The translations under genes were made by a program, and so were the position numbers. The notes beneath the pieces were generated by a model. That model did no database searches and was not told where the DNA came from. It saw only the letters and a program-made list of their open reading frames with translations. From a virus, in IMG/VR virus record IMGVR_UViG_3300028596_000062, positions 1 through 25,025 of that record: 25,025 bases of DNA. One strand, given 5' to 3'. This document shows, one piece after another, positions 2,749 to 13,647 of the stretch. Position 1 is the stretch's first letter. Every line of letters starts with the position of its first letter.

Positions 2749-3428
2749 TGTTGGACTGGACTAGATTGACGCCCGCAGTCGACCGTGCTGCGAGCATCGC
2801 ATCATCCAAGTTCCCTGCACACCACGACGTCTCCGACATCAAGCAGGAGATCTGGGTGTGGATCATGGAAAACAAGAAGACCGTTCTCAGAATCCTCTCT
2901 GACGAGAACAGCACGGTTGCAGCACTGGACAGCCTTCTCTTGAAGGCTGCCAACACGTACCTCAAGACAGAGGACGCTGCGGTCTACGGCTATCAGGAGG
3001 AAGATCGGTTCTTCTACTCGGTCGAGCTGATCAAGAGCATCCTTGAAGTGATCTTCCGACACGAAGACTGGCAGTCCTTCGCTACCGCGCTGGATGCCAT
3101 GCCTAAGGCTAAGGCTGAGCCTGCTACCGCTGGCAACAACCTTGCAGCGTACGCCGACGTCAAGTCGGCGGTTGAGAAGCTGCCGGAAGACTACTACAAC
3201 CTCATCGTGTGGCGCTACAAGTACCAGTACACGTTCACCATGATCGGCGAGCAGACCGGCACTACCAAGCAGAGCGTCTCGGAACGTCACGAGCGGGCCG
3301 TCAAGGCCATTCAGACACTGCTTGGGCAGACGCCCCTCACTAAGTTCCGCGAGGGGTACGACGGGCGCACAGAGGCCCGTGGTAACGCTTCTGGTCAAGC
3401 TCGGATCGAGCGAGACTACGAAGGCTGA
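2748..3428 (+). CDS. Sigma-70-like transcription factor
   Basis: This 226-residue protein has an N-terminal segment resembling sigma region 2 (HDVSDIKQEIWVWIMENKK, about residues 26-44). A clear region 4-type helix-turn-helix covers about residues 140-193: VEKLPEDYYNLIVWRY, then TMIGEQTGTTKQSVSERHERAVK as the DNA-reading part. The linker and a polar tail after residue 195 are poorly conserved in appearance. It probably directs host RNA polymerase to phage promoters, though an anti-sigma or a DNA-binding protein with only region 4 is possible. Translation is coupled to the phosphoesterase by TGATG. A strong terminator follows about 135 bases later. Confidence 0.72.
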   Translation: MLDWTRLTPAVDRAASIASSKFPAHHDVSDIKQEIWVWIMENKKTVLRILSDENSTVAALDSLLLKAANTYLKTEDAAVYGYQEEDRFFYSVELIKSILEVIFRHEDWQSFATALDAMPKAKAEPATAGNNLAAYADVKSAVEKLPEDYYNLIVWRYKYQYTFTMIGEQTGTTKQSVSERHERAVKAIQTLLGQTPLTKFREGYDGRTEARGNASGQARIERDYEG

Positions 3429-3430
3429 GT

Positions 3431-3560
3431 GGGTAGGAGTGGAGTCGAACCACTCTGCGCGGGCCGCCGCCCGATTAGCCACCATGGTTAACGGGAATCG
3501 AACCCGACAACAGGACCACCTGACGCTGGAATCGAACCAGCTTACGCTACCAATCTACCC
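3431..3560 (-). ncRNA. Segment with three T-loop hairpins (tRNA-derived or tRNA-like)
   Basis: Read on the minus strand, this 130-nt gap has three hairpins with canonical T-loops: stem GCTGG with TTCGATT (3525-3541), stem CGGG with TTCGATT (3492-3506) and stem GAGTGG with TTCGACT (3437-3455). The ends pair as GGGTAG (3560-3555) with CTACCC (3436-3431), directly stacked on the last T-arm. The 5' part contains TTGGTAGCG, a typical D-loop string. I could not fold any part into a full tRNA with an anticodon arm. It may be decayed or fused tRNA genes, or a larger relative of the 40-nt elements found further right. Transcription on this strand would need readthrough past the hairpin at 3565-3586. 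Confidence 0.5.
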
Positions 3561-3564
3561 TTGG

Positions 3565-3591
3565 GGGCCCGGCTCACGCCGGGCCCTTCTT
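3565..3591 (+). terminator. Rho-independent terminator between convergent units
   Basis: GGGCCCGGC (3565-3573) and GCCGGGCCC (3578-3586) form a perfect 9-bp stem around TCAC, followed on the plus strand by TTCTT. It closes the phosphoesterase-sigma operon and may also block minus-strand transcripts arriving from the right, although no T-tract is present on that side. Confidence 0.75.
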
Positions 3592-4398: not shown

Positions 4399-4412
4399 AA
4401 TCCTCCCTTGTT

Positions 4413-4426
4413 TCCGCTGCTGCGGA
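4413..4426 (-). promoter_or_regulatory. Hairpin before the 189-aa gene
   Basis: TCCGC and GCGGA pair around a four-base loop. The hairpin ends 14 bases before the ATG at 4398, just ahead of the GGGAGG site. It occupies the same position as hairpins seen ahead of most genes of this cluster. Confidence 0.5.
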
Positions 4427-4431
4427 TGGGC

Positions 4432-4512
4432 CAACAGGTGGGCGGAACATCCCGATCATCGGATGACCAGTCCTACGGGGAGCCTACTTATTTTTCGGCA
4501 ACCCACCTGTTG
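4432..4512 (-). ncRNA. Class II structured leader, copy 1
   Basis: An 81-nt segment is closed by a perfect 11-bp inverted repeat: CAACAGGTGGG at 4432-4442 and CCCACCTGTTG at 4502-4512. Inside are a GCC/GGC hairpin whose loop contains AATAAGTA and a CATCC/GGATG hairpin. The closing stem shares ACAGGTGGG with the leader at 10044-10141, and both precede the first gene of a minus-strand block. A riboswitch-like or processing role is possible; no known class was recognised. Confidence 0.55.
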
Positions 4513-4521
4513 ACTCAACCG

Positions 4522-4541
4522 CCGCCCTCCGGAGAGGGCGG
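4522..4541 (-). terminator. Strong intergenic hairpin after the 66-aa gene
   Basis: CCGCCCTC and GAGGGCGG form an 8-bp stem with a four-base loop, beginning 7 bases past the stop at 4549. No T-tract follows, so it may be a rho-independent terminator of the actinobacterial type or a 3'-end stabiliser. Confidence 0.4.
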
Positions 4542-4548
4542 ACGGAAC

Positions 4549-4749
4549 TTACTCCTGCACTGGCTCGATGGTGATGGTGATCTTGTACACCTTCAAGTCA
4601 TTGGAGCTGTAGTAGTTGATGAACTCCGGCTCTCGACTGAATTCCTCGCCACCGTTGTCTTTCAGCTCATCGAACACAGACTGAGCCGAGTAGTCGCGAG
4701 TGTAGGCAACCGCAGTGATAGACTCCGGAGAGTCGACGTCCCACGCCAT
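4549..4749 (-). CDS. Small hypothetical protein, paralogue of its upstream neighbour (66 aa)
   Basis: The protein shares order and motifs with the product of 4753-4950: DSPESITAVAYTRDYSAQSV against DSPLRAVGYTAAFSANQVV, and VYKITITIEPVQE against VYEVTITVRKLED at the C-terminus. It looks like a small alpha-beta protein that ends in a beta strand. The ATG at 4749 follows the neighbour's TGA by three bases, with GGAGG in the neighbour's coding end. No family recognised. Confidence 0.72.
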   Translation of the reverse strand: MAWDVDSPESITAVAYTRDYSAQSVFDELKDNGGEEFSREPEFINYYSSNDLKVYKITITIEPVQE

Positions 4750-4952: not shown

Positions 4953-5426
4953 TCACTCTCCCACTACAGGCTTGGACACATCGATCAGACCCGATTCCAG
5001 CATCACCACGACAGCGGTGTGCTGGTCCTTGATCTCATCCCACTTGTCGTGGGTGTTGGTGTAGCGAACAGAGTTCTTGCGAGTCTCTATGTCGCTCGCC
5101 GACAGATCACTGATGGTTCCCTCGCCGACCAGGTAGACCGTGGTCTCCCAGCGGGGGAGAGATCCGGGCTTGACCTTGCCCATCAGGATCTGAACGATCA
5201 CCGCAGGATTTTCGAGCTTGTGGTTGTCGTCTGTGACCACGACATACTCACCCACATAGGTGATCAGCCGGGCCCACAGTTCGTCAACCTCGAACGCCTC
5301 CTCATCCACCCGGAAGTGAACACCGCAGGCGTCACCCTGAGGGCACGCCTCAGCTCTCGCCTCAGCGTATGCCGCCTCCAGGATCTGCTCAGCCTCACGC
5401 TCAGCAGAGTTCTGCTCGTCGGTCAC
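4953..5426 (-). CDS. Hypothetical acidic protein (157 aa), GTG start
   Basis: The frame opens at GTG 5426 with AAGGGA about 7 bases upstream. The N-terminal third is an acidic helix (SAEREAEQILEAAYAEARAE) ending in CPQGDAC. The middle is beta-rich (YVGEYVVVTDDNHKLENPA), and WDEIKDQHTAVVVMLESG stands near the end. It heads the three-gene run with the two paralogues. No family recognised. Confidence 0.7.
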   Translation of the reverse strand: MTDEQNSAEREAEQILEAAYAEARAEACPQGDACGVHFRVDEEAFEVDELWARLITYVGEYVVVTDDNHKLENPAVIVQILMGKVKPGSLPRWETTVYLVGEGTISDLSASDIETRKNSVRYTNTHDKWDEIKDQHTAVVVMLESGLIDVSKPVVGE

Positions 5427-6171: not shown

Positions 6172-6345
6172 TCAGTTCTCCTCATTCTCGGATCGCTGGG
6201 CTTCGAGGCGGCCCTGAACCTTGATTAGCAGGACAGAGAGCGCGGCAAGCGCTCTCTGCTCTACCTCCCAAAGGCTGGGCTTCTCGGCGTAGAACTTACG
6301 CTCTGACGCCAGCTCCTCTTCCAGGATCCTGAAGAACTCGTCCAT
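6172..6345 (-). CDS. Small helical protein between the two kinase-like genes (57 aa)
   Basis: The ATG at 6345 follows a strong GGAGG. The product is nearly all charged helix (MDEFFRILEEELASERKF, then VEQRALAALSVLLIKVQGRL), compatible with a coiled-coil or a binding partner. Its stop lies one base before the start codon of the kinase-like gene, so the two are coupled. No family recognised. Confidence 0.7.
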   Translation of the reverse strand: MDEFFRILEEELASERKFYAEKPSLWEVEQRALAALSVLLIKVQGRLEAQRSENEEN

Positions 6346-6365: not shown

Positions 6366-6378
6366 CCCCGCTTTGGGG
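6366..6378 (-). promoter_or_regulatory. Short hairpin after T-loop element A
   Basis: CCCC and GGGG pair around a five-base loop, between element A and the ribosome-binding site of the 57-aa gene; the hairpin ends 20 bases before the ATG at 6345. Confidence 0.4.
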
Positions 6379-6383
6379 CTAGC

Positions 6384-6423
6384 GCCTGCCCAGGACTCGA
6401 ACCTGGGTGTATGCCATTCAGGC
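6384..6423 (-). ncRNA. T-loop tRNA-like element, copy A
   Basis: Minus strand order: outer GCCTG, spacer AATGGCATACA, stem CCCAGG, loop TTCGAGT, stem CCTGGG, outer CAGGC. The total is exactly 40 nt, as in the five other copies. Flanking GGGCTAGC and GCTAGCCC can extend the outer stem, with two unpaired bases. It lies 43 bases after the stop at 6467 and upstream of the 57-aa and kinase-like genes. It resembles acceptor plus T-arm of a tRNA with the D and anticodon arms replaced by the spacer. Confidence 0.75.
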
Positions 6424-6466
6424 TAGCCCAACGGCGCAGCCGTCGGCCTTTGCGTAGCTAGGAGCT

Positions 6467-6964
6467 TCAACCCCCAAGGTCGATCGGGACAAGCTCCTCG
6501 GTGGTCTGGTCGACCGCGAGGTTAGCCCCATGTAGGTCCCAGATGCCCTGAAGGACGTTCCGGATCTTGCGAAGGTTCTCCCAGTGCCTGGAGCCCTTCT
6601 CGTCGTACCGAGAGTACTCTTTCAGCAAGTGAGTAAAGTACTCCATCGCCATGACGTTGTCCTGATCCTCGAAGGCGTAGAACGCCCAGCGGGGGAAGCG
6701 GCAACCCTTGGGCATCCGCTTGAAGCGGTACAGCCGCAGGTTGTTATACTCACCCTCGTTGGTCTGCCCGCCGGTGTAGTTACGGTCCCGCTCGATCTTG
6801 TACACCACGCCAGACTCGACGTGGAGATAAACCGAACGGTAGCACCCCGAAGAGAGGTACTTCCAGCCCTCGGGGACCTTGTTCGGGGTCGCCCAGGACG
6901 CGTTCTGAGTCGTCTCCCGGTACCAGTCACGGATGAAGCGAGCGTCAACCTCATTGCCGATCAT
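6467..6964 (-). CDS. Kinase-like protein ending at the DLG motif (165 aa)
   Basis: This is a paralogue of the protein at 5658-6170. It has PEGWKYLSSGCYRSVY (glycine turn near 39-46), VVYK (Lys56), GEYNNLRL (Glu72), PKGCRFPRW, a hinge-like VMAMEYF, then WDLHGANLAV (Asp143, His145, Asn148) and PIDLGG (Asp162) at the very end. Catalytic-loop residues are kept, but there is no C-lobe after DLG. The start at ATG 6964 has AGGAG at good spacing; an upstream extension of 11 codons has none. It is preceded by element B. Substrate unknown; a truncated APH-like fold is the best reading. Confidence 0.68.
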   Translation of the reverse strand: MIGNEVDARFIRDWYRETTQNASWATPNKVPEGWKYLSSGCYRSVYLHVESGVVYKIERDRNYTGGQTNEGEYNNLRLYRFKRMPKGCRFPRWAFYAFEDQDNVMAMEYFTHLLKEYSRYDEKGSRHWENLRKIRNVLQGIWDLHGANLAVDQTTEELVPIDLGG

Positions 6965-6988
6965 GTCAACTCCTGTGAGTGAGCCAGA

Positions 6989-7007
6989 GGGCGCCACCTC
7001 GGCGCCC
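6989..7007 (-). promoter_or_regulatory. Hairpin after T-loop element B
   Basis: GGGCGCC and GGCGCCC form a perfect 7-bp stem with a five-base loop, starting a few bases after element B and ending 24 bases before ATG 6964. Its sequence differs from the hairpins after the other elements, but its position is the same. Confidence 0.55.
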
Positions 7008-7012
7008 CCAGT

Positions 7013-7052
7013 GGGTGTCTACGGCTCGAACGTAGATGCCTGCCAGTCACCC
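7013..7052 (-). ncRNA. T-loop tRNA-like element, copy B
   Basis: Outer GGGTG, spacer ACTGGCAGGCA, stem TCTACG, loop TTCGAGC, stem CGTAGA, outer CACCC. The inner stem differs at most positions from copies A and C, yet pairs perfectly. It starts 7 bases after the stop of the 117-aa gene. Confidence 0.75.
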
Positions 7053-7059
7053 TTGTTGC

Positions 7060-7413
7060 TTAGTTCAGTTCCTTCTCGGGCAGGCCGTACGCCTGCACCA
7101 GGCCGTCAGCAAAGTGGACGTACGCCGCCGGACGACCCCTAGCCCAACTGCGATCGAAGCTGAAGTCGTAGTCGGAGAGTGGAGTTCCGTACGTGCTGGG
7201 AACCTTGTCCCCCTCGCCGTAAGCGTCATACCACCGGCACCCGCAGGTGGAGCAGTCGCCCGCCCCGTCGAAGTACAGGCCGATGGACTGAGCCTTATCG
7301 TTCGCCTCCTCGGCGCTGTCGGCCTCGATGATAACGGTCAGGCTTACGCCCTTGTCGTCGTCGAAGTCGAAGCCGCCGCCCGAGTTGTTCTGACGGTAGT
7401 CGAAGAAAGGCAT
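7060..7413 (-). CDS. Hypothetical phage protein with a CxxCGC motif (117 aa)
   Basis: The ATG at 7413 lies behind GAAGGGA; a longer frame from 7488 would translate through element C and is rejected. The protein begins MPFFDYRQNNSGGGFDFDDD and has a strand-helix unit (VSLTVIIEADSAEEANDKA) like a small ferredoxin-type fold. CSTCGCRWYDAYGEGD follows, whose cysteines could bind metal. It resembles small conserved phage proteins of unknown function, but I cannot name the family. Confidence 0.72.
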   Translation of the reverse strand: MPFFDYRQNNSGGGFDFDDDKGVSLTVIIEADSAEEANDKAQSIGLYFDGAGDCSTCGCRWYDAYGEGDKVPSTYGTPLSDYDFSFDRSWARGRPAAYVHFADGLVQAYGLPEKELN

Positions 7414-7430
7414 GCCAATCCCTTCGTTCA

Positions 7431-7451
7431 GGCTCGCCAGGGGGGCGAGCC
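7431..7451 (-). promoter_or_regulatory. Hairpin after T-loop element C
   Basis: GGCTCGCC and GGCGAGCC form a perfect 8-bp stem with a five-base loop, starting three bases after element C and ending 17 bases before ATG 7413. Confidence 0.55.
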
Positions 7452-7454
7452 AGT

Positions 7455-7494
7455 GCCAGCCCAGGACTCGAACCTGGGTGTATGCCATCCTGGC
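7455..7494 (-). ncRNA. T-loop tRNA-like element, copy C
   Basis: Outer GCCAG, spacer GATGGCATACA, stem CCCAGG, loop TTCGAGT, stem CCTGGG, outer CTGGC. It is nearly identical to copy A, except that the outer pair changed from GCCTG/CAGGC to GCCAG/CTGGC, a compensated change. It begins 10 bases after the stop at 7505. Confidence 0.78.
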
Positions 7495-7504
7495 TACCTA
7501 AACC

Positions 7505-7939
7505 TTACCAACCGTAGCCGCCGTGGCCGGTCTCGGTGTCCTCGAACACCGGTCCAGCCTCGGAGTAGTTGATGTACATGTACTGCCCGACGAACTTGGT
7601 AGCCGTCTCGTACTCGTGCGCGGCCTTCTCGATCTTCTCGATCACCCGGTTGCGAGTCCTGCCGGACGACACGAAGTCGTCCACGAAGATCCAGCGGGCG
7701 CCGAGCTGTCCGAGAAGACGCCCCCTGCCGTGGTGAGAGTCGTCCGTCTCCTTACGGATCAGGACGAAGTTCTTGTTCAGGGCGAGAGCGAGAGAGGGGA
7801 TGACGATGCCACCCGAGAAGCCGGTACCGACCAGGGTGTCAAAGTCGACACCCTCAAGCCGCTCCTTGGCAGTCTCGATGACCTGTCCCAGGTTGAAGAC
7901 AGCGTCGTCCATGTAGTACGTGCGGAGCTTGGTGCTCAT
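7505..7939 (-). CDS. Phosphoribosyltransferase-family protein (144 aa)
   Basis: The PRPP-binding motif of type I phosphoribosyltransferases is present as WIFVDDFVSSGRT (about 83-95: hydrophobic strand, two acidic residues, then SSGRT). Before it, FDTLVGTGFSGGIVIPSLALAL (about 33-54) fits the early strand and loop of the fold. The ATG at 7939 has GAGGAGG; a 26-codon extension would run through element D. Such enzymes join a base and PRPP in nucleotide salvage. The short C-terminus (HGGYGW) and small size leave the substrate open; a regulatory role is also possible. Confidence 0.82.
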   Translation of the reverse strand: MSTKLRTYYMDDAVFNLGQVIETAKERLEGVDFDTLVGTGFSGGIVIPSLALALNKNFVLIRKETDDSHHGRGRLLGQLGARWIFVDDFVSSGRTRNRVIEKIEKAAHEYETATKFVGQYMYINYSEAGPVFEDTETGHGGYGW

Positions 7940-7953
7940 AACGTCCTCCTCTA

Positions 7954-7976
7954 GGGAGCGCCCCTGTAGCGCTCCC
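7954..7976 (-). promoter_or_regulatory. Hairpin after T-loop element D
   Basis: GGGAGCGC and GCGCTCCC pair perfectly over 8 bp around a seven-base loop, ending 14 bases before ATG 7939, right at the GAGGAGG site. Confidence 0.55.
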
Positions 7977-7979
7977 AGT

Positions 7980-8019
7980 GGGTGGCTAGGACTCGAACCT
8001 AGCTGTCTGCCGGTCACCC
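7980..8019 (-). ncRNA. T-loop tRNA-like element, copy D
   Basis: Outer GGGTG, spacer ACCGGCAGACA, stem GCTAGG, loop TTCGAGT, stem CCTAGC, outer CACCC. It starts 7 bases after the stop of the 32-residue peptide gene. A TTGACA at 8025-8020 just before it might act as a -35 box, with TAGGTT in the element 18 bases later, so this copy may overlap a promoter. Confidence 0.76.
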
Positions 8020-8026
8020 TGTCAAG

Positions 8027-8125
8027 CTAGAGGATCAGTGCACCCAGGACGAATCCCAGGATGAACACGATCAGCCTGACGTCGATCCAGATGTGAACCC
8101 TGCCGATGTACAAGTGAAGGCTCAT
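8027..8125 (-). CDS. Small membrane peptide (32 aa)
   Basis: The ATG at 8125 (or an adjacent in-frame GTG at 8128) follows the stop of the lipoprotein-like gene by four bases. After MSLHLYIGRVHIWIDVR, the rest (LIVFILGFVLGALIL) is a single hydrophobic segment reaching the C-terminus. The ribosome-binding site is weak. Function unknown. Confidence 0.5.
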   Translation of the reverse strand: MSLHLYIGRVHIWIDVRLIVFILGFVLGALIL

Positions 8126-8129
8126 CACG

Positions 8130-8336
8130 TCACCGCTTCTTGAAGGAGGGTGCCTTGTAGTTGGGCCAAGTCTTGTATCCGGGCTTGTACTTCTTGTTGC
8201 CGTCCACGTCGATCTCGATGCCGGGCCCCTGGTAAGCGGGACCGGAACCGGCCGAGCATGCGGCGAAGCCCACAACGAGTAGCAATATCAGGGCGAAGAT
8301 CGTACCGACCACCCTGATGAGAGTCTTCTCGTTCAC
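8130..8336 (-). CDS. Small exported or membrane-anchored protein, possible lipoprotein (68 aa), GTG start
   Basis: The start GTG at 8336 has GAGGA at short spacing. Residues 1-9 are charged (MNEKTLIRV), residues 10-25 form a hydrophobic core (VGTIFALILLLVVGFA), then FAAC, a weak lipobox with Phe at -3. The rest is polar and basic (GNKKYKPGYKTWPNYKAPSFKKR). Either lipid attachment at Cys27 or plain membrane anchoring would place the tail outside the membrane. In phages, small lipoproteins can act in superinfection exclusion, but there is no direct evidence here. Confidence 0.62.
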   Translation of the reverse strand: MNEKTLIRVVGTIFALILLLVVGFAACSAGSGPAYQGPGIEIDVDGNKKYKPGYKTWPNYKAPSFKKR

Positions 8337-8360
8337 AGTGTCCTCATTTCCCTTGGGTTA

Positions 8361-8374
8361 GGCACTGACGTGCC
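8361..8374 (-). promoter_or_regulatory. Hairpin after T-loop element E
   Basis: GGCAC and GTGCC pair over 5 bp with a four-base loop, three bases after element E and 24 bases before the GTG at 8336. It is the weakest of the series together with the one after copy A. Confidence 0.45.
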
Positions 8375-8377
8375 AGC

Positions 8378-8417
8378 GGGTGTCAGGGACTCGAACCCTG
8401 ATGTGTGCCGCTCACCC
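8378..8417 (-). ncRNA. T-loop tRNA-like element, copy E
   Basis: Outer GGGTG, spacer AGCGGCACACA, stem TCAGGG, loop TTCGAGT, stem CCCTGA, outer CACCC. It lies 95 bases after the stop at 8513, with a separate hairpin (GGGCC/GGCCC, 8421-8438) just before it whose loop GATAAGTA echoes the class II leader at 4432-4512. Confidence 0.76.
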
Positions 8418-8506
8418 TTTGGGCCTACTTATCGGCCCTGACTCACCCAGCTAGGACAGCGCCTCTAGCTAGGGGAGACGCGCTTAGCGACATAGTCGCA
8501 CGCCTC

Positions 8507-8523
8507 GGCTTCCTACGGAAGCC
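8507..8523 (-). terminator. Hairpin over the stop codon of the 121-aa gene
   Basis: GGCTTCC and GGAAGCC pair over 7 bp with a three-base loop that overlaps the stop codon at 8513-8515. No T-tract follows. It may end or stabilise the upstream transcript. Confidence 0.35.
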
Positions 8524-8878
8524 TAATTTCCTTGTTGTTGTGGATCTCCCAGATGGCTTTCTCGCCTCGAACGGCTCCGAGATCCATCGCGGGACCGAGG
8601 TTGTACATGTGGGTGACGGCGTCAAAGTACACCTTACCGTCCTCCTGGTCAACCCACACGCCGTAGTAGCTGGCGTGGGCGTTGTTACCAACCCACCAAC
8701 CGACCTCGCCCCGATCGACAGCGTCAACCGAGTCGTAGACCAGCGCAGACCCCTCCCCGCCGATCCAGTAACCGGTTACGGGGAGAGCGCTGAGATCGTC
8801 AGCCACGGTGCCTCCGATGCCATCCTTGACCATGTAAAACAGGTCGGTGGCAATGTCGTAGGCAGTCACGGTTTCCAT
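8513..8878 (-). CDS. Hypothetical protein (121 aa)
   Basis: The ATG at 8878 has a clear CAGGAGG. The protein has an N-terminal helix (TAYDIATDLFYMVKDGIGG) and a beta-rich body with several aromatic residues (GYWIGGEGSALVYDSV, VGWWVGNNAHASYYGVWVD). It may be an immunity-like or binding fold, but no family was recognised. It is preceded by element F and its hairpin. Confidence 0.72.
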   Translation of the reverse strand: METVTAYDIATDLFYMVKDGIGGTVADDLSALPVTGYWIGGEGSALVYDSVDAVDRGEVGWWVGNNAHASYYGVWVDQEDGKVYFDAVTHMYNLGPAMDLGAVRGEKAIWEIHNNKEIRLP

Positions 8879-8905
8879 AATGCCCTCCTGTAGCCATCAT
8901 GCAAA

Positions 8906-8923
8906 GACGCTCAGATGAGCGTC
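8906..8923 (-). promoter_or_regulatory. Hairpin after T-loop element F
   Basis: GACGCTCA and TGAGCGTC are perfect inverted repeats separated by two bases, so at least 7 bp can form with a four-base loop. It ends 27 bases before ATG 8878. Confidence 0.55.
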
Positions 8924-8928
8924 CAGTG

Positions 8929-8968
8929 CCCTGCTAGGGACTCGCACCCTAGTGTCTGCTGGTCAGGG
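8929..8968 (-). ncRNA. T-loop tRNA-like element, copy F
   Basis: Outer CCCTG (extendable by one G-C pair), spacer ACCAGCAGACA, stem CTAGGG, loop TGCGAGT, stem CCCTAG, outer CAGGG. This copy differs from the others at loop position 2 (T to G) and at spacer position 4 (G to A). In tRNA the corresponding residues, T-loop 55 and D-loop G18, contact each other. It begins 9 bases after the stop at 8978. Confidence 0.75.
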
Positions 8969-8977
8969 CTGTGGTAC

Positions 8978-9367
8978 TTACTTCAGGTACACAAGGCCGC
9001 TGTCGACGGCCGCACCCCATGCGATCCTGGAGTCCTGGAGGTGTTGCACCTGTGCAAGGGCGTTTGCGACGCCCTCACCGGTGGCAAGGGTGATGACACC
9101 CTCCTCCCTCAGTTCACCGAGAAGCTGGGCCGCAGGGACGCCGGTCATGTACTGATCTTCATCAGCTTCCACCAGCCGATCCACGGGCACACCCAGGTTG
9201 GCGAGGAGCCGACCGACAATGCAGTCAGGCTCACCGTTCCGGACGTACACGCACTTCGGGTAGCCGTCGTGCTGCTTCACACCCTCATAGACGAAGTCCT
9301 CGCCCTCCTGCTCGACGAGAGCCAGCAGGCCCTCACGAACGACGGAGGCGGTAAGGTTGATCGTCAT
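8978..9367 (-). CDS. Hypothetical protein (129 aa)
   Basis: The ATG at 9367 has GGGGAAGGA at suitable spacing; a 31-codon extension upstream would cover the leader hairpins and is rejected. The protein starts MTINLTASVVREGLLALVEQ and contains KCVYVRNGEPDCIVGRLLANLG, a beta-turn-helix unit with two cysteines. This resembles small phage proteins of unknown function in actinophages. The stop is followed at once by element F. Confidence 0.72.
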   Translation of the reverse strand: MTINLTASVVREGLLALVEQEGEDFVYEGVKQHDGYPKCVYVRNGEPDCIVGRLLANLGVPVDRLVEADEDQYMTGVPAAQLLGELREEGVITLATGEGVANALAQVQHLQDSRIAWGAAVDSGLVYLK

Positions 9368-9383: not shown

Positions 9384-9440
9384 TGAGTCAGACTGGACTC
9401 ATCAGTACGGGCTGTTACCCGCAGACGCCCCGAAGGGCGT
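9384..9440 (-). promoter_or_regulatory. Two hairpins between the 51-aa and 129-aa genes
   Basis: ACGCCC and GGGCGT (9425-9440) enclose a TTCG tetraloop on the minus strand just after the 51-aa gene stop. TGAGTC and GACTCA (9384-9401) pair around a six-base loop 16 bases before ATG 9367. No T-loop element is present in this gap. Confidence 0.5.
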
Positions 9441-9447
9441 TTCGTCC

Positions 9448-9603
9448 TTAGTCGTACCACTCACTCTTCACTCGTTCGACCCGCTTACGCAAGTCTCGCC
9501 TGCTGTTCCACTCGATCAGCCACCACATGAACGCGATAGCGATCACAGTGCCGATCCCGGTGCCGAGAACGGCGCCGAGGATCATCTTGGCTGTCTGATC
9601 CAT
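9448..9603 (-). CDS. Small single-span membrane protein (51 aa)
   Basis: The ATG at 9603 shares a base with the previous stop (TGATG), which fixes the start. One membrane segment (MILGAVLGTGIGTVIAIAFM, about residues 7-26, running on into WWLI) is followed by a strongly basic tail (RRDLRKRVERVKSEWYD) expected on the cytoplasmic side. The size fits a holin-like or membrane-modifying protein, but the neighbours are not lysis genes, so no role is assigned. Confidence 0.7.
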   Translation of the reverse strand: MDQTAKMILGAVLGTGIGTVIAIAFMWWLIEWNSRRDLRKRVERVKSEWYD

Positions 9604-11769: not shown

Positions 11770-13647
11770 GTGGCTAGACCTGTTAACAGGAGTGTCCGTG
11801 AGAAGAAGGACACCATCCTCACGTACCTCAGGAACGGCATCCCTGTAGCTAAGGCTATCTCCGACCTGGGTATCACCAAGCAGGCTGTTCAGTACTACCG
11901 AGAGTCCGACAAGGACTTCCGAGCTGAGTACAACAGACTCCGTCTCATGGAGACCGCTGGTTCGGAAGCGGGGAAGAAGGACGTACCAGACTTCCCCGAG
12001 TTCTGTGAGGAGTACCTGGACACCAAGCTCTTCGGTCACCAGCTTCAGTGGTACGACGTTCTGGAGGGTCGCGAACCACGCGACCTCCACCCGAATCAGA
12101 TCTACAAGCCGGGTGACCCCGGTATGATCATCGTGAACACTCCTCCGGAGCATGCGAAGTCCACAACCATCACGGTGAACTACACGACGTGGCGGATCTG
12201 CCAAGACCCGAACATCCGTATCATCATCGTGTCACAGACCCAGGAGATGGCTAAGCGGTTCCTCCGGGCGATCAAGGATCGTCTCGCCGGTGCGAACCCT
12301 GCCTACAAGAAGCTCCAGCACGACTTCGCCCCTGAGGGCGGGTTCGACGCGAACAGCGCGTCGTGGACCGCCGACTCTATCTACGTGAACGCAGAAGCCC
12401 GAGACTCCGGTGAGGCTACGCCTACCGTGCAGGCTCTGGGCATGAACGGTCAGATCTACGGTAACCGAGCTGACCTCATCATCCTCGACGACACAGTGAC
12501 AGGTAAGAACGCTCATGAGTTCGAGAAGCAGATCGACTGGATCCAGCGAGAGGTCATCAACCGGCTTTCGTATCCTGGAGGAGTTCTACTCCTCGTTGGA
12601 ACGCGCCTTGCGCCAGTCGAACTCTACTCCGAGATCCAGAAGCCAGAGTGGTATGGCCAGGACGAAGAGAGTCCTTGGACCTATCTCACCCAACCAGCCG
12701 TACTGGAGTTCGCTGAGTCTCCAGACGACTGGGTTGTTCTCGCACCCGTCACCAACCGACCCCCGGTCTCGCTCGGAGCAAGACGACTGGTGGAGGCGAA
12801 CGCAGACGGACTCTACCCCTGGCACTCAGGCAGGTCGCTAGCACGACGACGCGCAACGTCGTCGGCCCAGAACTGGAAGATGGTCTACCAGCAGGAGCAG
12901 GTGGTTGAAGATGCGATCTTCCCGGCCAACAAGGTGGCAGCTAGTATCGACGGGATGCGAGCTGCTGGACTCATGTCCCCAGGCGCCCCAGGACATCGAC
13001 CCCACGGCATGGACGGACTCTATGTGGTGGGGGGCTTCGACCCTGCCATCACAGGCCATGCTGCCGCCGTCGTACTTGGCGTTGATCGAATGTCCGGGAT
13101 GCGGTATGTCCTTGATGTATGGACTGCCCCCAACCAGAAGCCGGACGACCTCTTCGACAAGCTGAAGGACTGGACCGTCAAGTACCACATGCACGAGTGG
13201 GTCATCGAGAAGAACGCGATGAACCTGATGGTCACGCAGAACCGTGACCTGAGGAACTTCCTCGGCAGCCGTGGCACGATCCTCAAAGAGCACTTCACAG
13301 GCAACAACAAGAACGACGCCGACTTCGGCGTCGCATCGATGAGCATGCTGTTCGACGGTGCGCTGGAGGACAGGGGTCTGATCCGGCTCCCCTCCCGCTC
13401 CCAGAACGAGGGCACCAAAGCCCTCGTCGAACAGCTCGTTACCTGGTTCCCCCAGACCAAGGCCAAGCAGGACACGGTGATGGCCCTGTGGTTCGCTGAG
13501 ACGCGGGCCCGTGAGCTGGTCAACGACATCGAGTCTGTGTTCCACGTCAACAACTCCTACCACTCGGAGAACGACAAGCGCAAGCAAGTGACCATCGATC
13601 TGGACTACCTCGGCCAGAACATACAACAAGAATGGTGGCAAACCTGA
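11770..13647 (+). CDS. terL: Terminase large subunit with N-terminal helix-turn-helix
   Basis: This 625-residue packaging motor and nuclease drives DNA into the capsid. The N-terminal part (about 8-60) contains SDLGITKQAVQYYRESDKDF, a helix-turn-helix like that of small terminase subunits. The ATPase follows: a Walker A-like TPPEHAKST (124-132), Walker B LIILDD (236-241) and coupling motif LLVGTR (274-279). The RNase H-like nuclease has GGFDPAITG (Asp424), VIEKNAMN (Glu480) and NDADFG (Asp518). The start is GTG 11770, behind AGGAGG; an ATG at 11728 lies inside a hairpin without a ribosome-binding site. The stop shares one base with the endolysin start. No separate small subunit is seen nearby. 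Confidence 0.93.
   Translation: MARPVNRSVREKKDTILTYLRNGIPVAKAISDLGITKQAVQYYRESDKDFRAEYNRLRLMETAGSEAGKKDVPDFPEFCEEYLDTKLFGHQLQWYDVLEGREPRDLHPNQIYKPGDPGMIIVNTPPEHAKSTTITVNYTTWRICQDPNIRIIIVSQTQEMAKRFLRAIKDRLAGANPAYKKLQHDFAPEGGFDANSASWTADSIYVNAEARDSGEATPTVQALGMNGQIYGNRADLIILDDTVTGKNAHEFEKQIDWIQREVINRLSYPGGVLLLVGTRLAPVELYSEIQKPEWYGQDEESPWTYLTQPAVLEFAESPDDWVVLAPVTNRPPVSLGARRLVEANADGLYPWHSGRSLARRRATSSAQNWKMVYQQEQVVEDAIFPANKVAASIDGMRAAGLMSPGAPGHRPHGMDGLYVVGGFDPAITGHAAAVVLGVDRMSGMRYVLDVWTAPNQKPDDLFDKLKDWTVKYHMHEWVIEKNAMNLMVTQNRDLRNFLGSRGTILKEHFTGNNKNDADFGVASMSMLFDGALEDRGLIRLPSRSQNEGTKALVEQLVTWFPQTKAKQDTVMALWFAETRARELVNDIESVFHVNNSYHSENDKRKQVTIDLDYLGQNIQQEWWQT

Follow-up and report, generated by a model that had tools for sequence, protein, structure and literature searches.

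A 40-nt tRNA-like element between early genes of actinobacterial phages and its exchange with hammerhead ribozymes

Six copies of a T-loop element in one operon

What is the role of an RNA element which recurs, almost without change of length, in the gaps between the small early genes of a phage? The question is raised by a 25,025-nt stretch of viral DNA (IMG/VR record IMGVR_UViG_3300028596_000062, positions 1 to 25,025; hereafter the window), in which an earlier note had placed six copies of a 40-nt T-loop element on the minus strand, at 6384, 7013, 7455, 7980, 8378 and 8929. All of them were confirmed base for base. The layout given for them (outer stem, spacer, inner stem, loop, inner strand and outer strand of 5+11+6+7+6+5 nt) holds, the sole exception being the copy at 8929, which has a sixth outer pair (GCCCTG/CAGGGC); all stem pairs form in all six copies and all six spacers fit the proposed consensus RNYRGCANRCA. 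The loop, announced as being of TTCGAGT type, is TTCGAG[T/C] in five of the six copies and TGCGAGT in the other.

Read on the minus strand, element 1 (8928–8969) is GCCCTG ACCAGCAGACA CTAGGG TGCGAGT CCCTAG CAGGGC, then ACT (cmsearch score 50.3 bits); element 2 (8378–8417) is GGGTG AGCGGCACACA TCAGGG TTCGAGT CCCTGA CACCC, then GCT (68.9 bits); element 3 (7980–8019) is GGGTG ACCGGCAGACA GCTAGG TTCGAGT CCTAGC CACCC, then ACT (70.6 bits); element 4 (7455–7494) is GCCAG GATGGCATACA CCCAGG TTCGAGT CCTGGG CTGGC, then ACT (63.5 bits); element 5 (7013–7052) is GGGTG ACTGGCAGGCA TCTACG TTCGAGC CGTAGA CACCC, then ACT (63.8 bits); and element 6 (6384–6423) is GCCTG AATGGCATACA CCCAGG TTCGAGT CCTGGG CAGGC, then GCT (64.9 bits). 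The T-arm is identical in the copies at 6384 and 7455. All six lie on the strand that codes for the flanking genes. Seven small-gene gaps, from 9447 to 6346 on the minus strand, contain one structured RNA each: a hammerhead ribozyme in the first and a T-loop element in the other six. Chance expectation was estimated from 60 dinucleotide-resampled windows. A loose T-arm descriptor, which detected exactly the six copies in the real window, found 0.05 elements per 25 kb in the resampled ones, and the strict 5+11+6+7+6+5 layout was absent from all 60.

Covariation and non-nested contacts

The fold was evaluated on an alignment of 73 sequences, in which 99.6% of the cells are paired (77.6% in shuffles) and both sides of a pair have changed in 223 cells (64 in shuffles). 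The covariation score is 0.56 as compared with 0.14 after shuffling, and structures slid by 1–3 columns score 0.03–0.10; the covariation of the stems that had been claimed from the window is thus strong once relatives are added. Mutual information, calculated without any assumed structure, placed at the top the stem pairs plus two non-nested pairs: 7-13, which joins spacer 2 to spacer 8, and 14-29, which joins spacer 9 to loop 7. Among 179 distinct 40-mers of the family collected from fetched loci, pair 7-13 is CG in 97, GC in 46, AT in 32 and TA in 2, and pair 14-29 occurs in all four Watson-Crick forms (AT 132, GC 28, CG 10, TA 3). The latter is convincing because its rarer CG and TA forms turned up only after the first alignment, in gaps missed by the first descriptor (Endor1 13441-13544 and Werner 9005-9104).

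Two further contacts link spacer and loop. Spacer G4 (G9) is opposite loop T2 (T24) in 173 of the 179 copies, with a joint change to A/G in five, and spacer G5 (G10) opposite loop C3 (C25) is invariant in alignment A1. The elbow of tRNA is held by the contacts G18.Psi55 (Psi, pseudouridine) and G19-C56. At the sequence level the element therefore has the T-loop with elbow contacts that characterizes tRNA (RF00005), and in three dimensions the spacer GG and loop T2 and C3 may well occupy the places of these two contacts. The first outer pair is G-C in 169 of 179 copies, and positions -1 and +73 never pair in the 155 copies with five outer pairs, which defines a sharp helix end. The coaxial helix of the main class comprises 11 bp (5+6) in these 155 copies and 12 bp in eight others, and mostly 11–12 bp in other classes; that formed by the acceptor and T-stems of tRNA has 12 bp. 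The predicted folds of the elements are stable.

A tRNA-like 3' side followed by a hairpin

The 3' outer strand is followed by R-C-T: N73 is A or G in 172 copies, N74 is C in 172 and N75 is T in 146 out of 179. Purine 73 and C74, the mark of a tRNA-maturation substrate, are therefore both present. Three related Streptomyces phages supplied 56 genuine tRNA genes for comparison: C stands at N74 in 54 of them and T at N75 in 30, while all 30 tRNAs of an actinobacterium with an element-bearing prophage have C74. Since these statistics are shared with genuine tRNA genes, the 3' boundary of the element is tRNA-like. Together with the T-loop, the GG opposite T2/C3 and the non-nested covariation, this flank gives good support to the view of the element as a tRNA mimic.

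A variable hairpin begins directly after R-C-N (offset 0 in 93 copies); 68% of the copies, as against 11.5% of shuffles, have a downstream stem score of at least 7.5. The Shine-Dalgarno sequence (SD) and then the start codon lie 3' of the hairpin. The element usually starts 6–15 nt past the stop codon of the upstream gene, and its distance to the downstream start is mostly 25–50 nt.

Distribution among actinobacterial phages

An exact motif scan of viral contigs led to 22 loci. Most of them proved to have extra copies in a descriptor scan, up to nine per locus, nearly all of 5+11+6+7+6+5 layout and on one strand within each locus. The covariance-model search suggested in the earlier note was run with model R1 and, together with further scans, identified elements in more contigs (numbers such as L041 below designate the retrieved viral or genome loci compared with the window). 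BLAST with one copy returned 143 phage records: 113 from Streptomyces, 22 from Mycobacterium, 7 from Microbacterium and 1 from Arthrobacter phages. Whole-genome model searches revealed 6–10 copies per genome, all on one strand, in Camvirus, Likavirus and Yosifvirus, and the mycobacteriophages Konstantine, Damien and Papyrus carry the element as well. It is always intergenic, on the coding strand, and has only one orientation relative to genes.

On the bacterial side, the model search gave matches in 4 out of 297 genomes of the class of Jiangella, the first one in a Jiangella prophage; the element is therefore essentially a phage or prophage sequence. Exact-pattern scans of genome contigs yielded nothing with one pattern and one Jiangella prophage with another, and no T-loop element was found in the plasmids searched.

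The window itself, from a phage of Streptomyces type, is mosaic: its tested tail protein is nearest to Beephvirinae, and its early gene 7413-7060 matches Arquatrovirinae. An origin of the element in Beephvirinae, to which the closest tail protein belongs, was rejected: these phages have tRNA arrays, and the whole-genome model search found no T-loop element in three Beephvirinae genomes.

A distinct group of eight loci (L062, L064, L066, L069, L070, L072, L074 and L075) has a single copy of a family element, with a long conserved 3' domain, upstream of a scaffold-looking gene, which is followed by a capsid gene in L074. In this group base pairing is conceivable between the ACTCC that lies 3' of the element and a GGGAGT at the SD.

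Exchange with hammerhead ribozymes

In the window, the gap next to that of element 1 in the same operon contains a type II hammerhead ribozyme (9387–9447, minus strand), with a predicted cut after GUC, between 9424 and 9423. In cmscan it scores 31.7 bits against RF02276, whose gathering threshold is 37; the E-value is 0.0066 when the whole window is searched and 5.8e-5 for the local stretch. Its alignment to the model displays a complete core (CUGAUGA, GAAA, the cleavage triplet and three stems), as required of type II.

The gene behind it (8978–9367, minus strand; phrog_572, function unknown) has orthologs behind hammerheads or T-arm elements. The gap before them is occupied by hammerhead II in the window group, L058, L021 and L090/L099 (the last two were fetched for carrying a hammerhead, and their share is uninformative on frequency), by the main T-loop class in L041 and L045, and by other T-arm minihelices in L046, L043 and L012. 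Hammerheads outside the window were identified by pattern rather than by model score. Those of L058 and L021 differ in ribozyme sequence, the latter having a long stem III. A second hammerhead of L021 precedes the TIWVC gene, the L058 homolog of which sits behind a T-loop element (homology judged by eye from TIWVC.DC.LHHANGECG). Such repeated replacement of the element by a self-cleaving ribozyme is the strongest functional evidence and suggests RNA cleavage between genes. Like the cut envisaged for the element, hammerhead II cleavage would, according to the fold, leave hairpins at both ends. A published proposal for clustered phage hammerheads is that they divide long phage transcripts into mRNAs of one gene each (PMC3088659).

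Three type II hammerhead patterns, 1.4–1.6 kb apart, were also noted on the plus strand of L106 (4364, 5982 and 7391), a contig without T-loop elements of this family.

Other T-arm minihelices in the same niche

Gaps without the main class often carry another T-arm minihelix. These include a 6+10+6+7+6+6 variant with ATGGTCGNAG (Konstantine, L009 and L023), a 5+11+6 variant with AACGGTTTTCG (Papyrus), variants with TGCAAG or TGCAAC loops (Yosif, Werner, L012 and L043) and a tRNA-like 7+14+5 variant (L046). In L041, the ortholog of gene 7939-7505 sits behind a class with a different spacer. All T-arm classes have in common the acceptor stem, the T-arm and a 3' R-C-T/G, whereas the spacer is not shared; this speaks for a recognising factor that reads acceptor and T-arm.

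Two observations concern this niche. A conserved gap sequence without T-arm, GGTAGTCAGCTACCGRTTCCC...AAGGGGTGCCCCTGGTACTGGGGGTACCC, is found on the minus strand in L030 (10447-10537) and L036 (12045-12132) and is possibly another structured element; and two tandem T-arm minihelices precede a gene in a bacterial genome (L145 1505-1672, plus strand).

Identity and novelty of the element

No model of Rfam 15 matches the 40-mer, and cmscan gave no hit on any window copy even at E <= 5. This includes the tRNA model RF00005, to which no copy had a covariance match with a cloverleaf and anticodon arm. ARAGORN predicts no tRNA in the window, and a tRNA or transfer-messenger RNA (tmRNA) gene was rejected on these grounds. 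An intrinsic terminator was likewise rejected: the element has no T run, nor do most of the hairpins that follow. Modification of Psi55 by a TruB-type enzyme is unlikely as a shared purpose, because TGCGAG and TGCAAG loops are without U55. The literature search, with most subscription journals and preprints beyond its reach, retrieved no earlier description. The earlier note's remark that this is not a described class thus holds as far as tested, and within the limits of the check the RNA family has no published description. The kind to which it belongs is already known, since tRNA-like processing signals and intergenic phage cleavage elements both have precedents.

Elsewhere the only ARAGORN calls over elements are tRNA-Arg calls in L019 and L029. 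The tRNA-Arg annotated in Endor2 (L029 5379-5461, L019 30-112) results from such a call on a T-loop element and is no tRNA; the tRNA-Arg of Sitrop is probably another. L008, which also has T-loop elements, carries on its plus strand (9494-9574) a tmRNA-like tRNA domain (RF00023, 61.9 bits) of 81 nt, with no room for a tag open reading frame (ORF). A plus-strand segment of phage contig L041 (7022-7096) resembles positions 237-308 of bacterial 16S rRNA (27.9 bits, E = 0.00035, below gathering).

A model for the function of the element and its alternatives

In the model that we favour, the acceptor-like stem and the T-stem would stack coaxially to form a compact mimic of the tRNA elbow within the mRNA. 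The 11-nt strand would stand in for the D arm, anticodon arm and variable loop and would dock on the T-loop through GG-T2/C3, spacer 9-loop 7 and a one-pair closure between spacer 2 and spacer 8; these docking pairs are supported by covariation or conservation. Host tRNA maturation nucleases would take the element for a pre-tRNA and cut it, most likely just 3' of the discriminator base (RNase Z) and perhaps on the 5' side too (RNase P). Cutting would divide the polycistronic early transcript into mRNAs of one gene each whose ends are structured: the upstream mRNA would terminate in the mimic and the downstream one would begin with the hairpin. This would be tRNA punctuation by mimics unable to decode, interchangeable with hammerheads doing the same job by self-cleavage.

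Judging from sequence comparison, we consider cleavage of the element by host tRNA maturation enzymes to be rather probable. RNase P is known to cut some phage RNAs and operon mRNAs (PMC11143913), and it reads the T-stem/acceptor stack, the D-loop being dispensable (PMC4919913). The earlier note had envisaged a role in processing, stability or translation. Its tRNA mimicry stands and processing is now favoured over the two other roles because the same orthologous gap has hammerheads in some phages and T-arm elements in others; RNase P specifically is not established.

Several observations weigh against the cleavage model. The 5' boundary, unlike the 3' one, does not resemble that of tRNA genes, position -1 being A in 152 of 179 elements in place of the pyrimidine found in 49 of the 56 phage tRNAs (T or C); the main class has 11 bp instead of 12; and the 3' tail is not CCA. 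The conservation of C74 and of R-C favours RNase P, whereas the flush hairpin, the 11-bp helix and the A at -1 fit RNase Z at least as well. The L021 and L058 hammerheads had no Rfam match reaching E 0.5, and some gaps of the same operons contain other or no recognisable elements. Finally, the replacement of element by hammerhead demonstrates that the two share a niche; their chemistry need not be the same.

The main rival explanation dispenses with cleavage: the elbow fold and the hairpin would protect the upstream 3' end or block RNase J or polynucleotide phosphorylase (PNPase). Stable folds, a strictly intergenic location on the coding strand and the hairpin that follows the element all agree with a role in stability or as an exonuclease stop. 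However, a plain hairpin would be enough for this, and the R-C-T flank, the conserved elbow contacts and the replacement by self-cleaving ribozymes are left unexplained; we regard it as possible but unlikely. A translation element, i.e. a tRNA mimic for binding to the ribosome or for coupling termination to re-initiation at the next gene, would suit the location in the interval from stop codon to SD, for the most part 25-50 nt upstream of the start. It is very unlikely, given that there is no anticodon or codon-like pairing, that a hairpin intervenes before the gene, that hammerheads occupy the same place and that one class lies >100 nt upstream of its gene (L074). The 40-nt element could itself be a new class of small self-cleaving ribozyme, interchangeable with hammerheads in actinophage operons, as its invariant length, conserved core (GGCA..CA), tertiary pairs and exchange with hammerheads might suggest; this is highly doubtful because other classes in the same gaps have unrelated spacers and share only acceptor, T-arm and R-C-T, and because the letters of the core are those of the tRNA elbow. 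Lastly, a DNA-level feature (repeated operator, promoter or mobile repeat), for which only the recurrence in intergenic gaps speaks, was rejected, since paired sites covary, non-nested ones included, while flanks and stem sequences diverge, and since orientation relative to genes is single.

Neighbouring genes and local features

The genes behind elements 1 to 6 are all on the minus strand: 8513–8878 (phrog_17808, unknown), 8130–8336 (68 aa, GTG start), 7505–7939 (phosphoribosyltransferase-like, phrog_2068), 7060–7413 (DUF7296, whose orthologs in many Streptomyces phages also follow this element), 6467–6964 (phrog_28435, unknown) and 6172–6345 (57 aa). The variable hairpins, on the same strand, follow directly after element 1 (8905–8924, from sequence and fold), element 2 (8361–8374, GGCAC GTCA GTGCC in the sequence), element 3 (7951–7978, from the fold) and element 4 (7431–7451, GGCTCGCC CCCCT GGCGAGCC). 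Sequence also places one after element 5 (6989–7007, GGGCGCC GAGGT GGCGCCC) and a weak one after element 6 (6366–6378, CCCC AAAGC GGGG).

The early operon ends in a pseudo-tRNA region (3425-3570, minus strand) with three T-arm hairpins inside GGGTAG...CTACCCACTC; it has a weak tRNA-Sec match (22 bits) and its minimum free energy is not unusual. A homologous arrangement with an identical 3' end is present in L023 (~5260-5400, minus strand). The gap at 4400-4549 (minus strand) contains a long, imperfectly enclosed structure, CAACAGGTGGG...CCCACCTGTTG, preceded by a terminator-like hairpin. A small hairpin motif, CCGAWAAATAAGTAGG / GGGCCGATAAGTAGGCCC, recurs in gaps of the window (8420-8440 and 4480-4497, minus strand), in L033 (near 25700) and in L058 (1900-1915). 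Recurrent GTGACAGTGTGAG words, possibly a promoter or operator, were seen in many Camvirus gaps (L028 and L034).

Implications and comparison with known systems

If the model is correct, tRNA mimics serve many actinobacterial phages, including model phages of Streptomyces coelicolor and Mycobacterium smegmatis, as punctuation of their polycistronic mRNA, with hammerheads as the alternative device. Clustered phage hammerheads would then have a natural function, and mitochondrial tRNA punctuation a counterpart in phages. The RNA family would be a new one in which tertiary contacts supported by covariation fit into just 40 nt, and actinobacterial genetics would gain compact, ready-made sites for RNA processing. 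Owing to the exchange, the reason for the presence of intergenic hammerheads in phages can be tested directly. Annotators should be aware that some 'tRNA-Arg' calls in related phages are T-loop elements.

Among known systems, the clustered type II phage hammerheads (Perreault et al. 2011, PMC3088659) are alike in their intergenic location in phages, with several per operon, and are found here in the same orthologous gaps as the T-loop element. They are self-cleaving and have an unrelated fold, whereas the element has no hammerhead core and its catalysis would be hypothetical. With RNase P substrates such as M3 RNA, C4 RNA, T4 gene 32 mRNA and polycistronic mRNAs (PMC11143913), it shares R73-C74 and the location in mRNA, and, like the model substrates of this enzyme (PMC11143913), it has an acceptor stem and T-arm without D or anticodon arms. 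It differs from them in being a covarying, multi-copy family present at many junctions in unrelated actinophages, with its own substitute for the D-loop. The tRNA-like domain of tmRNA (RF00023), itself an RNase P substrate, also combines acceptor and T-arm with a reduced D arm, but the 40-mer is without P2 helix and tag ORF and is not matched by the Rfam models. Mitochondrial tRNA punctuation (PMC8601606) offers the parallel of tRNA-shaped units between genes that would release mRNAs, the phage unit differing in that it is a 40-nt mimic without anticodon and a putative cleavage site.

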